Source of the DNA: Actinomycetota bacterium
GTDB taxonomy: Bacteria; Actinomycetota; Coriobacteriia; Anaerosomatales; Anaerosomataceae
Direction of reading: 5' to 3'
NCBI GenBank assembly: GCA_009773565.1
Contig: WSXY01000002.1
Coordinates: 186,001-250,000, forward strand
Length of the DNA stretch: 64,000 bases
Shown: piece by piece, positions 16-12,385 of the stretch
Layout: each line of letters opens with the position of its first letter
Numbering within the stretch: position 1 is the stretch's first letter
The notes under the pieces: model-generated
The model's input: only the letters and a program-made list of their open reading frames with translations
Told to the model about the DNA's origin: nothing
Database searches by the model: none
Translations under genes and position numbers: made by a program

Positions 16-30
16 TCGAACGGAGTGGGA

Positions 31-2094
31 ATGGATCTTTCGACGCTCGGCAATCTCTTGTTGGCTCTGGCCAGCATCTCGGCGCTCGGGTCGATTGCGG
101 CTATCGCGTTCACGTCGTTCACAGGCAAGTCGGATACATCGCGGGTGACCGGACACGTGCTGACGTTCGTTTCCACGGCGTTCACATCGCTGGCGACGTT
201 CCTTCTGCTCACGGCGTTTCTCGGCGAGAACTTTAAACTTGAGTACGTCGCCTACAACCACCCGACCATCGTTGGTCCGTGGTCGTGGCTCTATAAGGTT
301 TCGGGCGTATGGGCGGGTCGCGAAGGCTCGCTCCTGTTCTGGGCGTGGCTGCTGTCCCTCTTTGCAGCCTGGATCGCGTATCGGTTCCTCGCGAAGCGCG
401 ACCGCCTTGCCACCACGGCGCTCGGCATCATGAACTTTGTTCAACTGTTCTTCCTCACAGCGCTGTTCATCCCGCTCAACAACCCCTTCAAGCTCCTGCC
501 GCCCGAGTACCTTGATCCGAACACGGGCCAGCTGCTCATCCAGGCGGCCATGAACCCGCTCCTGCAGACGTGGGCGATGATCGCGCATCCGCCGACGCTC
601 TTCCTGGGGTATGCGGGGCTGACGGTGCCGTTCGCATTCGCAATGGCAGCGCTCTTCACCGGGGATACCTCCAAGCACTGGGTTCAGATCTCCGATCGCA
701 TCACGGTGTTCTCGTGGCTCATGCTCGGTATCGGGATCGGTCTTGGCGCGGTCTGGGCGTATATCGAGCTCGCCTTCGGCGGTTACTGGGCATGGGATCC
801 GGTCGAGAACGCCTCGCTGCTCCCGTGGCTGACGGGCGTCGGACTCCTTCACTCTATGACGGTCTACCGGAAGCGCGACGGTTTTCGTGCGTGGACGATC
901 TTCATGGCGGCTGCGACATTCGTGTTCGTGTTGCTCGGCACGTTCATCACACGGTCCGGCATCGTGAGCTCGGTTCACGCCTTCCAGGAGGACCCGCTCT
1001 CGTTCTGGCTCTTCCTGTCGATGATGGTCGGATCACTGGGTGTCGCGCTGGTCGGAATCTGGTTCCGCCGGGACAAGCTCAGGGGCAATGACACGTTCGA
1101 TCGCCTCTTCTCCAAGGAGGGGTCGTACTATTTCAACAACGTGATCATGCTGGTCGCGGCTGTGATGGTCGCGTACCTCACGCTGTCGCAGGCACTTCCG
1201 AAGTGGTTGCCGGGTGGCGGCCAGGTCTTTGGCGCGGCGACATACGATATCCTCGCCCGGCCAGTCGGCATCTTCTACATCCTCGTGATGTCGGTGTGCC
1301 CGATACTCTCGTGGGGCGGGGCTGGCTGGAATGCGTTCTGGAGCAGGGCGAAGTGGCCGATCTTCGGCGCTGCTGGCGTCGGCGCGGTCCTCCTCACCAT
1401 CTGGGCGTTTGCAATGATGCCGTACTACAATCCGACAGCCACCTCGATGCCGCTCTTGAATCACACGGTTGCAATCGTCGGTCTGCTCGTCGCGTCACTC
1501 TCGATCTCATTGCCGATCTACCTCTTCATCGATGGAACGCTCAAGCGATCGGCGGCCAAGGGCGAGAGTTTTGGAAAGGCGCTCTTCAACATACTCACCA
1601 AGGCGCGCTCGCAGTCGGGCGGTTATCTGACGCACCTGGGCATGGGTATTATCCTTGTCGGGCTGATCGGCTCGACAATGTACGTACGGACGTACGAGAC
1701 GGCGATCCCGCAGACGCCCGGCGCCAAGATCGAGGCCGGCGCATATACGTTCAACTTCGGCGGTATCGAAGAGATCACTAAGGCCAACGGCGACGGACAG
1801 GTCACGGCGATTCTCAACGTGACGCTTAATGGCAAGCCGGCCGGTACCGTGAAGCCGCGCATCATCTATCCGAAGCAGCTTGAGCAGGAGGGGTCTTCGA
1901 CCCAGAAGGTCTCGCTCATTCAGCAGCCGCTTAAGGACATCTTCGTTTCGTTCTCCGGCGTCGACCAGGCCGAGAACGCTGTGTTCACGGTGAAGTTCTT
2001 CCCGATGCAGTGGTGGGTGTGGGCGGGCTTCATCATGACGATTCTCGGTAGCGCGCTGGCCTCATGGCCGAAGCGGTCGCCGAAGGCGGCTTAG
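31..2094 (+). CDS. ccmF: cytochrome c heme lyase subunit CcmF
   Basis: CcmF is the polytopic membrane component of System I that attaches heme to CXXCH motifs outside the membrane. The protein has 687 residues with many membrane segments. The tryptophan-rich heme-handling motif GGYWAWDPVENASLLPW lies at about residues 250-266, and the conserved histidine segment HPPTLFLGYAG at about 187-197. A soluble domain precedes the last membrane helix. ATG 31 is preferred over GTG 25 because GGAG sits at 22-25. It is seven bases upstream of ccmA and probably in one operon with it. The length is normal for the family (about 650). Confidence 0.95.
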   Translation: MDLSTLGNLLLALASISALGSIAAIAFTSFTGKSDTSRVTGHVLTFVSTAFTSLATFLLLTAFLGENFKLEYVAYNHPTIVGPWSWLYKVSGVWAGREGSLLFWAWLLSLFAAWIAYRFLAKRDRLATTALGIMNFVQLFFLTALFIPLNNPFKLLPPEYLDPNTGQLLIQAAMNPLLQTWAMIAHPPTLFLGYAGLTVPFAFAMAALFTGDTSKHWVQISDRITVFSWLMLGIGIGLGAVWAYIELAFGGYWAWDPVENASLLPWLTGVGLLHSMTVYRKRDGFRAWTIFMAAATFVFVLLGTFITRSGIVSSVHAFQEDPLSFWLFLSMMVGSLGVALVGIWFRRDKLRGNDTFDRLFSKEGSYYFNNVIMLVAAVMVAYLTLSQALPKWLPGGGQVFGAATYDILARPVGIFYILVMSVCPILSWGGAGWNAFWSRAKWPIFGAAGVGAVLLTIWAFAMMPYYNPTATSMPLLNHTVAIVGLLVASLSISLPIYLFIDGTLKRSAAKGESFGKALFNILTKARSQSGGYLTHLGMGIILVGLIGSTMYVRTYETAIPQTPGAKIEAGAYTFNFGGIEEITKANGDGQVTAILNVTLNGKPAGTVKPRIIYPKQLEQEGSSTQKVSLIQQPLKDIFVSFSGVDQAENAVFTVKFFPMQWWVWAGFIMTILGSALASWPKRSPKAA

Positions 2095-6780: not shown

Positions 6781-6810
6781 TTGTGTCGGCAACCTCGCCG
6801 ATGGTAAACT
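6781..6810 (+). promoter_or_regulatory. predicted hemA promoter with extended -10
   Basis: TTGTGT at 6781-6786 is followed after 18 bases by the extended -10 sequence TGGTAAACT (6802-6810). The predicted transcript would start at about 6816-6817, the outer edge of the inverted repeat that follows. This gives hemA a leader of roughly 147 bases and a promoter separate from the upstream ccm/SDR genes. Confidence 0.5.
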
Positions 6811-6814
6811 ACCC

Positions 6815-6913
6815 TTGTTCAGGCAAGCGCAGTTGGTGCGCTCTATAGCGTTTCACATCGCCCCCGCCGGGCCTGCTTGCCTGAACAACAATGCACCGCA
6901 CCGGCGGGGGCGA
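6815..6913 (+). promoter_or_regulatory. structured hemA leader with two interleaved perfect inverted repeats
   Basis: Arm A is TTGTTCAGGCAAGC (6815-6828) and its exact reverse complement is at 6875-6888. Arm B is TCGCCCCCGCCGG (6858-6870) with its exact reverse complement at 6901-6913. The order A, B, A', B' means the two helices form either a pseudoknot or two exclusive hairpins. A third hairpin, GCGCA/TGCGC (6827-6831 with 6837-6841), lies in the loop of A. No U-tract follows B', so it is not a simple terminator. The hemA start is 50 bases downstream. A regulatory RNA leader is the likely meaning. Confidence 0.65.
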
Positions 6914-6963
6914 CCCATGTCCCGATACGCGACGGACCCTCGTGACGCGATGAAGCGAGTTGT

Positions 6964-8334
6964 ATGCACCTCCTAGTCGTCGGTCTCAGCCATAAGACCG
7001 CGCCCATCGAGATACGGGAGCGGCTCACATTCCCGGCACACCGCCAGGCCGAAGCGCTGGCGTTGCTGCTCTCTCAGCCCGCTGTGGCGGAGGCCGTCAT
7101 CATCTCGACATGCAACCGAACCGAGATCTACGCTGTTGCATCCGGCGGCGACGAGGGTGTGGATTCCGTCATCGAGTTCATGGCGGACTATCACGAGCTC
7201 GATCGCCACGAACTCATCCGATCGCTCTATATCACGCGGGGTGTCGATGTTGTACATCACCTGTTCCGGGTGGTCGCTTCGCTCGACTCGATGGTTATCG
7301 GCGAGGCGCAGATCCTCGGTCAGGTGAAAGAGGCATACGACCACGCGATGGAGAATGGTGCGACCGGGCTTGCGCTCAACAAGCTCTTCCGCCAGTCGTT
7401 CGAGGTCGGGAAGCGCGTTCGCAATGAGACCGGGATCGGCGAGAACGCCGTTTCGATCAGTTACGCAGCGATCGAGCTTGCCAAGAAGGTCTTCGACACG
7501 CTGAGTGGCCGTACGATTCTCATCCTCGGTGCGGGCAAGATGAGCGAACTCACCGCGAAGCATCTCGTGAGCAATGGCGTGAAAAGCGTTCTTGTCGCGA
7601 ACCGCACGTTCGAGCGTGCGCAGGAGCTTGCCGAGCGATTCAACGGCGAGGCGATCCGGTACGACGACCTTTACGAGCGGATGCGTGGCGCTGACATCGT
7701 CATCACGTCAACGGCGGCGACACATTACGTCATCACGAAGGAACAGGTCGCCTCTGCGATGCGCGGCCGTGGTGGTCGACCGCTCTTCCTGATCGACATC
7801 GCCGTGCCCCGCGATATCGAGCCCACCGTCAACGATCTCTCCAACGTCTTCCTGTACGACATCGACGATTTGAGTGGCGTCGTCGAGTCAAACCTCGAGG
7901 AGCGAATGCGCGAGGCAGGACGCGCCGAGCACATCATCGCCGAGGAGATCGCGTTGTTCGTACGCTGGCGCGAGTCGCTTGAGGTCGTTCCGACGGTTGC
8001 GGCGATTCGGGCCAAGGCCGAGGTCATCCGTCTGGCCGAGCTTGAGAAGGCGTGCAAGCGGCTCGGGGGGCTCTCGCAGAAGGATCGCGAGACGATCGAG
8101 GCGCTGACGTGCGCCATCGTCAACAAGATGCTCCACGGTCCCACACAGCGCCTCAAGCAGGCCGCTGCGGCGAAGGACGGTTACGAGTACGTCGAGACCG
8201 CGCGGCACCTCTACGGGCTTGAGGAGAGCGAGGCGCGTGGGCACGGTAAGCTGCGCAACCTGCTCAACCGCCGGGCGCACGATACGGCCGACAAACAGGC
8301 AACTCACGAGATAGGAGATTCGCTTGGCTGCTGA
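6964..8334 (+). CDS. hemA: glutamyl-tRNA reductase HemA
   Basis: HemA reduces Glu-tRNA(Glu) to glutamate-1-semialdehyde with NADPH, the first committed and usually regulated step of tetrapyrrole synthesis. The 456 residues begin with MHLLVVGLSHKTAPIEIRE. The catalytic cysteine is C50 in ISTCNRTEIY, and the NADPH domain carries ILGAGKMSELTAKHL. The C-terminal dimerisation helices are present and the length is close to normal. ATG 6964 has a weak site (GAAGCGAG). The final 11 bases overlap hemC. Expression is probably controlled through the structured leader upstream. Confidence 0.97.
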   Translation: MHLLVVGLSHKTAPIEIRERLTFPAHRQAEALALLLSQPAVAEAVIISTCNRTEIYAVASGGDEGVDSVIEFMADYHELDRHELIRSLYITRGVDVVHHLFRVVASLDSMVIGEAQILGQVKEAYDHAMENGATGLALNKLFRQSFEVGKRVRNETGIGENAVSISYAAIELAKKVFDTLSGRTILILGAGKMSELTAKHLVSNGVKSVLVANRTFERAQELAERFNGEAIRYDDLYERMRGADIVITSTAATHYVITKEQVASAMRGRGGRPLFLIDIAVPRDIEPTVNDLSNVFLYDIDDLSGVVESNLEERMREAGRAEHIIAEEIALFVRWRESLEVVPTVAAIRAKAEVIRLAELEKACKRLGGLSQKDRETIEALTCAIVNKMLHGPTQRLKQAAAAKDGYEYVETARHLYGLEESEARGHGKLRNLLNRRAHDTADKQATHEIGDSLGC

Positions 8335-12309: not shown

Positions 12310-12385
12310 GGGGATGTAGCTCAGCTGGGAGAGCACTGCGTTCGCAACGCAGGGGTCGGCGGTTCGAGTCCGCTCATCTCCACCA
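12310..12385 (+). tRNA. tRNA-Ala (anticodon CGC)
   Basis: A full cloverleaf can be drawn. The acceptor stem pairs GGGGATG with CATCTCC (one G-T pair). The D arm is GCTC/GAGC. The anticodon arm pairs CTGCG with CGCAG around TTCGCAA, giving anticodon CGC, and the T arm is GGCGG-TTCGAGT-CCGCT. CCA is encoded at 12383-12385. It reads GCG alanine codons, which are common in this GC-rich DNA. It sits alone inside the heme gene cluster. Confidence 0.95.

Follow-up and report, generated by a model that had tools for sequence, protein, structure and literature searches.

Small RNAs that act at the very start of an mRNA have been described before. In Bacillus subtilis, RoxS/RsaE is reported to bind the extreme 5' end of a target mRNA, with protection from RNase J1 and better ribosome binding (PMC5419742). 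Leader RNAs may also play a double part, as in Listeria, where Rli51 is described as a leader that attenuates its own gene and acts in trans (PMC11394854), and an RNA fold made of three mutually crossing helices has been classified as the ABCABC pseudoknot ('pseudotrefoil', class 1C; PMC3390330). Small RNAs linked to cytochromes or heme synthesis are on record as RyhB in Shewanella (PMC5826389) and IsrR in Staphylococcus (PMC12607789). For the first cultured Anaerosomatales, two genomes are reported to carry 18 and 17 genes for multiheme cytochromes (PMC9686372), so that heme budgeting should matter to these bacteria. Our literature searches on heme, cytochrome maturation and small RNA found nothing of the kind presented below, and these and further searches, including those on small RNAs in the class, gave no description of the hemA-leader element. 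Judged by comparison of sequences, its hairpin has the look of a base-pairing RNA not described before, one that would connect the making of heme with its use.

Architecture of the hemA leader

The window, a 64,000-nt stretch of an Anaerosomatales contig, holds at 6964-8334 a gene that, from knowledge of such sequences, we take to be hemA, encoding glutamyl-tRNA reductase. The parts of its leader and the neighboring genes are as follows.

25..2094, + strand: CcmF-like gene in the ccm operon; ccmE, with which this operon begins, sits just before the window
6781..6786, + strand: -35-like TTGTGT, 18 nt upstream of the -10; a similar TTGT stands in the family alignment
6802..6810, + strand: extended -10-like TGGTAAACT, conserved as TGNTANNAT in the family alignment
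6817..6824, + strand: A box GTTCAGGC, conserved core of arm A and probable transcript start
6835..6840, + strand: C arm GGTGCG of a third crossing helix, from order-wide helix counts
6858..6870, + strand: B arm, 5' side of the putative seed-displaying hairpin, from repeat match and covariation
6872..6887, + strand: predicted seed loop CCTGCTTGCCTGAACA, which is A' with a 5' extension (core TTRCCTGAACA) and complements the ccmE leader box
6892..6897, + strand: C' arm TGCACC, from order-wide helix counts
6901..6913, + strand: B' arm, 3' side of the hairpin, from repeat match and covariation
6964..8334, + strand: hemA, glutamyl-tRNA reductase, an open reading frame of 456 aa

The interleaved inverted repeats of the preliminary description are exact: A (6815-6828) and A' (6875-6888) are complementary at 14 of 14 positions, B (6858-6870) and B' (6901-6913) at 13 of 13, and the link between A' and B' measures 12 nt, as had been stated. 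Across the order, the conserved part of A comprises eight pairs only (6817-6824 with 6879-6886), and the A box reads GTTCRGGY or ATTCGGGC in 64 of 65 hemA leaders. A third crossing helix, C (6835-6840) with C' (6892-6897), had escaped the preliminary description. The transcript start, previously assigned to the first bases of arm A, likely lies at about 6815-6818, since the extended -10-like TGGTAAACT stands 6 nt before GTTCAGG (6817) in an arrangement that recurs in relatives; its placement rests on this arrangement, a simple promoter scan of the window having listed no site. Transcription from 6817 and the hemA ATG at 6964 would give a leader of about 147 nt. No T-run follows B' in the window, so that a free small RNA would here need processing or another mode of termination.

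Between B' and hemA, a short reading frame (6917-6976) starts 3 nt past B' and ends just within hemA. Similar frames occur in several clades with the start codon 6-7 nt past the G-run; as they are absent from other clades and vary in length, we rejected an upstream reading frame as a core part of the element. The same interval holds a possible second small hairpin (GTCCG..CGGAC) in eight leaders (L017, L019, L020 and L022-L026), at which one genome pair reads GTGCGC..GCGCAC or GTGCAC; these are genera without the short reading frame. Elsewhere in the window, 12310-12382 is a tRNA gene.

Conservation and covariation of the helices

A family search with HemA detects the protein in 26 of 27 genomes, at 68-85% identity to that of the window. 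Although HemA is conserved to this extent only, 33 consecutive nucleotides (CGCCCCCGCCGGGCCTGCTTGCCTGAACAACAA) spanning B, the B-A' link, A' and AACAA are identical in all 26 family hemA leaders, and we therefore do not ascribe the perfect repeats to chance. A DNA search of the order locates the element in 65 of 69 Anaerosomatales genomes, with one match each and in 37 of 40 genera, the hemA leaders of 65 of the 69 having the arrangement A-C-B-A'-C'-B'. A covariance model of the family leaders recovers 73 of 396 class genomes, namely the 65 of the order and eight from the families f17, f20 and f21, and a second model, of the hairpin alone, likewise recovers 73 of 396. In a draw of 396 genomes from the phylum the hairpin model finds nine, five of them outside the class; the E-values are rough, both models being short-calibrated. 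A pattern search of contigs yielded 88 stretches, which were scored for a stem: those with a long stem and matching flanks were accepted as genuine and the remainder read as chance. The pattern scan of viral contigs gave no match. The loop core TTRCCTGAACA is present in all 24 aligned hairpins.

Pairing was counted over 64 leaders of the order, 62 of them distinct, with L016, which lacks arm A, excluded. Jointly, the three helices pair in 98.6% of cells, with five pairs changed on both sides, and slid controls pair in 37-48%; as the genomes are related, such cell counts overstate independence. Among the 62 distinct leaders, B/B' is paired in 100% of cells with three pairs changed on both sides, and C/C' in 94.1% with two, at which A-U replaces G-C in six and two cells. 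A/A' is paired in 99.8% of cells and has wobble changes only, so that its covariation comes from outside the order, from the outgroup leader L449 (G675, outside the class), where the compensatory pair GTCCAGGC/GCCTGGAC is found. Related hemA leaders thus carry compensatory changes in B/B' and C/C' within the order and in A/A' in the outgroup; of the two helices first proposed, B/B' is borne out within the order itself, A/A' being near-invariant there. Further afield, the f17 leader L131 retains the three helices, its B stem being different and its C/C' reading AAGCGGTG/CACCGCTT, and in genome G077 the loop is carried by an unrelated stem, GTCTGTGCTGG/CCAGCACAGAC, in a hairpin that was picked out by eye and missed by the models. 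Relatives in f12 have a short fourth pairing beside A/A' that is changed on both sides, as found by a best-helix search, which is biased towards pairs.

B/B' in the order leaders includes ten G-U cells and no A-C cell, which identifies the plus strand as the RNA strand. The SAH riboswitch model RF01057 matches the minus strand of 6818-6908, the wrong strand by this evidence, with 22.1 bits against a gathering score of 37 (E 0.038); it was not seen in eight related loci at E up to 1, and we rejected it.

Three crossing helices, with covariation of B/B' and C/C' in the order and of A/A' in L449, would make up a putative ABCABC pseudoknot if all of them form at once. Because A and C follow each other in the same order as A' and C', A/A' and C/C' cannot be joined into a single uninterrupted antiparallel helix, whether in cis or in trans. 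The either/or switch between two folds that had been thought plausible is, in its simple form, not required, since the A and B helices have been kept together by evolution.

Complements of the loop in other leaders

A search of nine genomes for arm A with up to two mismatches revealed the same sequence at further sites, one of which lies 0.85 kb upstream of the window, before ccmE (G000:C12:185151). Exact copies of the 12-mer GTTCAGGCAAGC number 162 in 69 genomes, those in cis included, versus 23 for the reversed control. Arm A (GTTCAGGCAA) is found in 60 of 64 ccmE leaders (order 49/50, f17 2/2, f20 6/9, f21 3/3), each time 6-8 nt past a TANNNT -10. Changes in this 10-nt core are confined to C8 to T (10 cells), A10 to G (17 cells) and A10 to C (one cell), and 27 of these 28 changed cells keep pairing with the loop through G-U; over the full 12-mer, 41 changed cells keep pairing and 21 of 62 break it, all at positions 10-12. 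In G072 and G091, which represent one lineage only, a loop with TTACC is matched by a ccmE box with GGTA, giving a U-A pair in trans. The ccmE leaders of genus g45 (L377-L379) have a different conserved stretch, TTGTTGACCGAAGRCGTG, past the -10 instead of the box; a loop complementary to it was looked for before hemA in g45 and none was seen.

A third gene, for a membrane-anchored Rv0361-like protein, is present in 59 of 69 genomes. The Rv0361 family is matched by five of nine third-gene proteins, and a Pfam scan of one such protein gave no match. Its leader has an intact 8-nt box in 41 of 50 cases (28/30 in L395-L424 and 13/20 in L425-L444), none being found before the other nine genes. The box directly precedes the Shine-Dalgarno sequence, about 20 nt downstream of the -10, and this position beside ribosome sites suggests translational control. 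Possible extra targets are an adenosylhomocysteinase-like gene in G017, with an A box shortly past a TATACT -10 (L342, position 1508), and the gene of a related membrane protein (SDQDFFFDED) in G032 and G051, with an A box past TATACT (L353, 1517; L363, 1531). Another recurring A box stands past TACGCT in genera g10 and g11 (L238, 968; L341, 1509; L346, 1551).

The conserved spelling of GTTCAGGCAA and its fixed spacing of 6-8 nt from the -10 in ccmE and hemA would also fit a transcription factor site at or near +1 of several promoters, with A' as a second, inverted operator, and a sequence-specific protein could also constrain A/A', given its near-invariance within the order. We regard such a DNA operator as very improbable: compensatory RNA helices surround A', the A/A' pair covaries in L449, the changes in the 10-nt core are almost only of the G-U type, the stem around the loop is completely replaced in G077, and the third-gene box adjoins the Shine-Dalgarno sequence, about 20 nt past the -10.

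Hairpin and ccmE box are also present or absent together. Of the genomes in which both could be read, 57 have the two, four (G029, G073, G075 and G081) have neither and none has one alone, by counts compiled by hand that leave out G039, G079 and G083, in which the box is present and the hairpin region unreadable. Fisher's test gives P ~2e-6 for this association, but the four genomes stand for no more than about two independent losses: G029 and three genomes of g45 are without hairpin and without ccmE box, and in G029 the third-gene box is gone too. At the level of sequence, what would be looked for in a trans-acting base-pairing RNA is found here: a conserved seed (the loop, 24/24) complementary to other mRNAs (the ccmE box, 60/64), target sites that lie close to the mRNA start (ccmE) or beside the Shine-Dalgarno sequence (third gene), and seed and site changing together (G072/G091 and the joint loss in four genomes). 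Comparison across genomes shows the conserved hairpin, the conserved boxes, the covariation of the helices and the joint loss of hairpin and box.

The hairpin also occurs apart from arm A, or from hemA altogether. In the five f20 hemA leaders and in L016 the loop is present and the A box absent within 400 nt upstream of hemA, and all five f20 genomes without the cis box carry the ccmE box. HemA was not found in the three f21 genomes (G085, G089 and G077), whose assemblies are 90, 77 and 86% complete, so that its absence is not certain for each; here the hairpin is kept downstream of ccmC-like genes, with a ccmE box in every genome. In the f21 locus L127, an intrinsic-terminator-like site follows the hairpin and a promoter-like match precedes it.

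These genomes bear on the earlier reading of the leader as a possible heme- or tetrapyrrole-responsive RNA. Its first part, a structured RNA that starts near arm A before hemA, stands; its second, a ligand-sensing switch, does not stand as stated, because the loop is kept without cis arm A or hemA and its complement lies at the 5' end of other mRNAs. A riboswitch, in which the A-C-B-A'-C'-B' pseudoknot would serve as aptamer for a tetrapyrrole such as heme or siroheme and control hemA translation in cis, would fit the invariant core, the compact multi-helix fold and the position before the control gene of the pathway, and B', a G-rich strand, could mask a ribosome site in the f20 leader L129, where it stands 9 nt from the start of hemA. 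We nonetheless consider it quite unlikely. An element conserved with its controlled gene would not be expected where hemA is not found, as with the hairpins of G077, G085 and G089, nor would the loop stay invariant in f20 with no A box in cis; and, consistent with the absence of any known riboswitch signature in the preliminary description, no Rfam family matches the hemA leader at gathering score. Base-pairing in trans would explain a loop kept without cis arm A or hemA, and would not need ligand sensing. Masking of the hemA ribosome site by B as a general rule was rejected, the distance from B' to the hemA start ranging from 9 to more than 190 nt.

Outside the class the two parts are found together or apart. 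In three f74 genomes (G542, G657 and G730) the hairpin, located after a moaC-like gene, is directly followed by a T-run. G657, the only one of the three in which hemA was read, has this hairpin between moaC- and mog-like genes, and its hemA has a -10-like sequence of its own with the box GTTCAGGCAAGC 93 nt before the start; mog-like, cytochrome-assembly-like and siroheme-synthase-like genes separate the two. The outgroup loci L450, L451 and L452 show a hairpin with T-run after a moaC-like gene, followed in L450 and L451 by a mog-like gene, and this hairpin looks like a separate small RNA gene. In f87, G609 has box, C arm and a 14-bp B/B' stem with TTTTTTT upstream of hemA, and before its ccmE stands GTTCGGGCAGG past TAAAAT. 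L450 and L453 have loops longer than simple terminator scans allow and were missed by them.

The f87 leader L453 has the anatomy of an attenuator, with A in cis and, upstream of hemA, a B/B' stem of 14 bp that leads into TTTTTTT, and A/A' might compete with B/B' during leader transcription in cis only, the boxes elsewhere being remnants of duplicated leaders. We think this unlikely, since the ccmE and third-gene leaders have boxes without A', loop and hemA box are set apart in G657 with other genes between them, and f20 and f21 have no A box near the hairpin in cis.

Proposed mechanism and comparison with known systems

Based on the above data, we consider it quite probable that the element acts not as a heme riboswitch but by base-pairing, as an RNA that is usually part of the hemA leader and coordinates the synthesis of heme with the maturation of cytochrome c. 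The hairpin B/B' would present the invariant loop CCUGCUUGCCUGAACA for pairing with a box, GUUCAGGCAA, that lies at the 5' end of the target mRNAs or close to it, namely in those of the ccm operon (ccmE first), of the Rv0361-like membrane protein gene and of hemA itself. In the order, fusion of the hairpin into the hemA leader would place box (A) and loop (A') on one transcript, which could fold as the three-helix A-C-B-A'-C'-B' pseudoknot, and in other lineages the hairpin would be a separate unit. Where the box adjoins the ribosome site, as in the third gene and in the ccmE of f21, we expect pairing to reduce translation; where it lies at the extreme 5' end, as in ccmE and hemA, we expect a change in mRNA decay or an opening of the hemA pseudoknot. 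We infer that pairing takes place in cells both in cis and in trans, and that its outcome may be a heme supply matched to cytochrome c maturation.

A duplex of up to 14-15 bp between loop and ccmE box is possible. Over 48 genomes the mean computed duplex energy is -29.2 kcal/mol in trans, -22.4 in cis (with the 5' part of the same leader) and -13.4 for shuffled sequences, and the trans duplex is the stronger in 45 of 48 genomes, all these values ignoring pseudoknot and accessibility costs. The ccm mRNA, whose 5' box has a stronger computed pairing with the seed loop than the box within the leader, might open the hemA pseudoknot. We tentatively suggest, as a possible though rather doubtful extension, that the hemA leader is regulatory RNA and mRNA in one, that direct mRNA-mRNA pairing sets heme production by the demand of cytochrome c maturation, with neither a protein nor a ligand sensor, and that in some lineages the hairpin became, or began as, a free small RNA.

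If the proposed base-pairing holds, the class would possess an RNA regulon that joins the supply of heme to the maturation of cytochrome c. Box and seed, which share a single RNA in some lineages and are split between two in others, would offer a natural series for the study of how riboregulators shift from cis to trans action or back. RNAs that pair in trans are already known; what would be new is that the seed hairpin is part of a target mRNA which has its box in cis. A close parallel is RoxS with yflS, where a trans RNA likewise has its box at the extreme 5' end of the target mRNA; RoxS, with its C-rich regions, is a small RNA in its own right, whereas here a hairpin loop is usually fused to the hemA leader and has its own cis box (PMC5419742). 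RyhB and IsrR, as presented in their reports, differ from the hemA-leader RNA in seed, targets and host phylum, and iron control is no part of our evidence (PMC5826389, PMC12607789). Rli51 is likened to it by description, not by sequence, and unlike Rli51 as there described, the present element is class-wide, is associated with genes for heme and cytochromes and alternates between a fused and a separate form (PMC11394854). It is worth noting that the ABCABC pseudoknot has its helices in the same order as the hemA leader and is a topology class, not a functional family (PMC3390330); here that topology would arise from a box and a hairpin that also occur apart.
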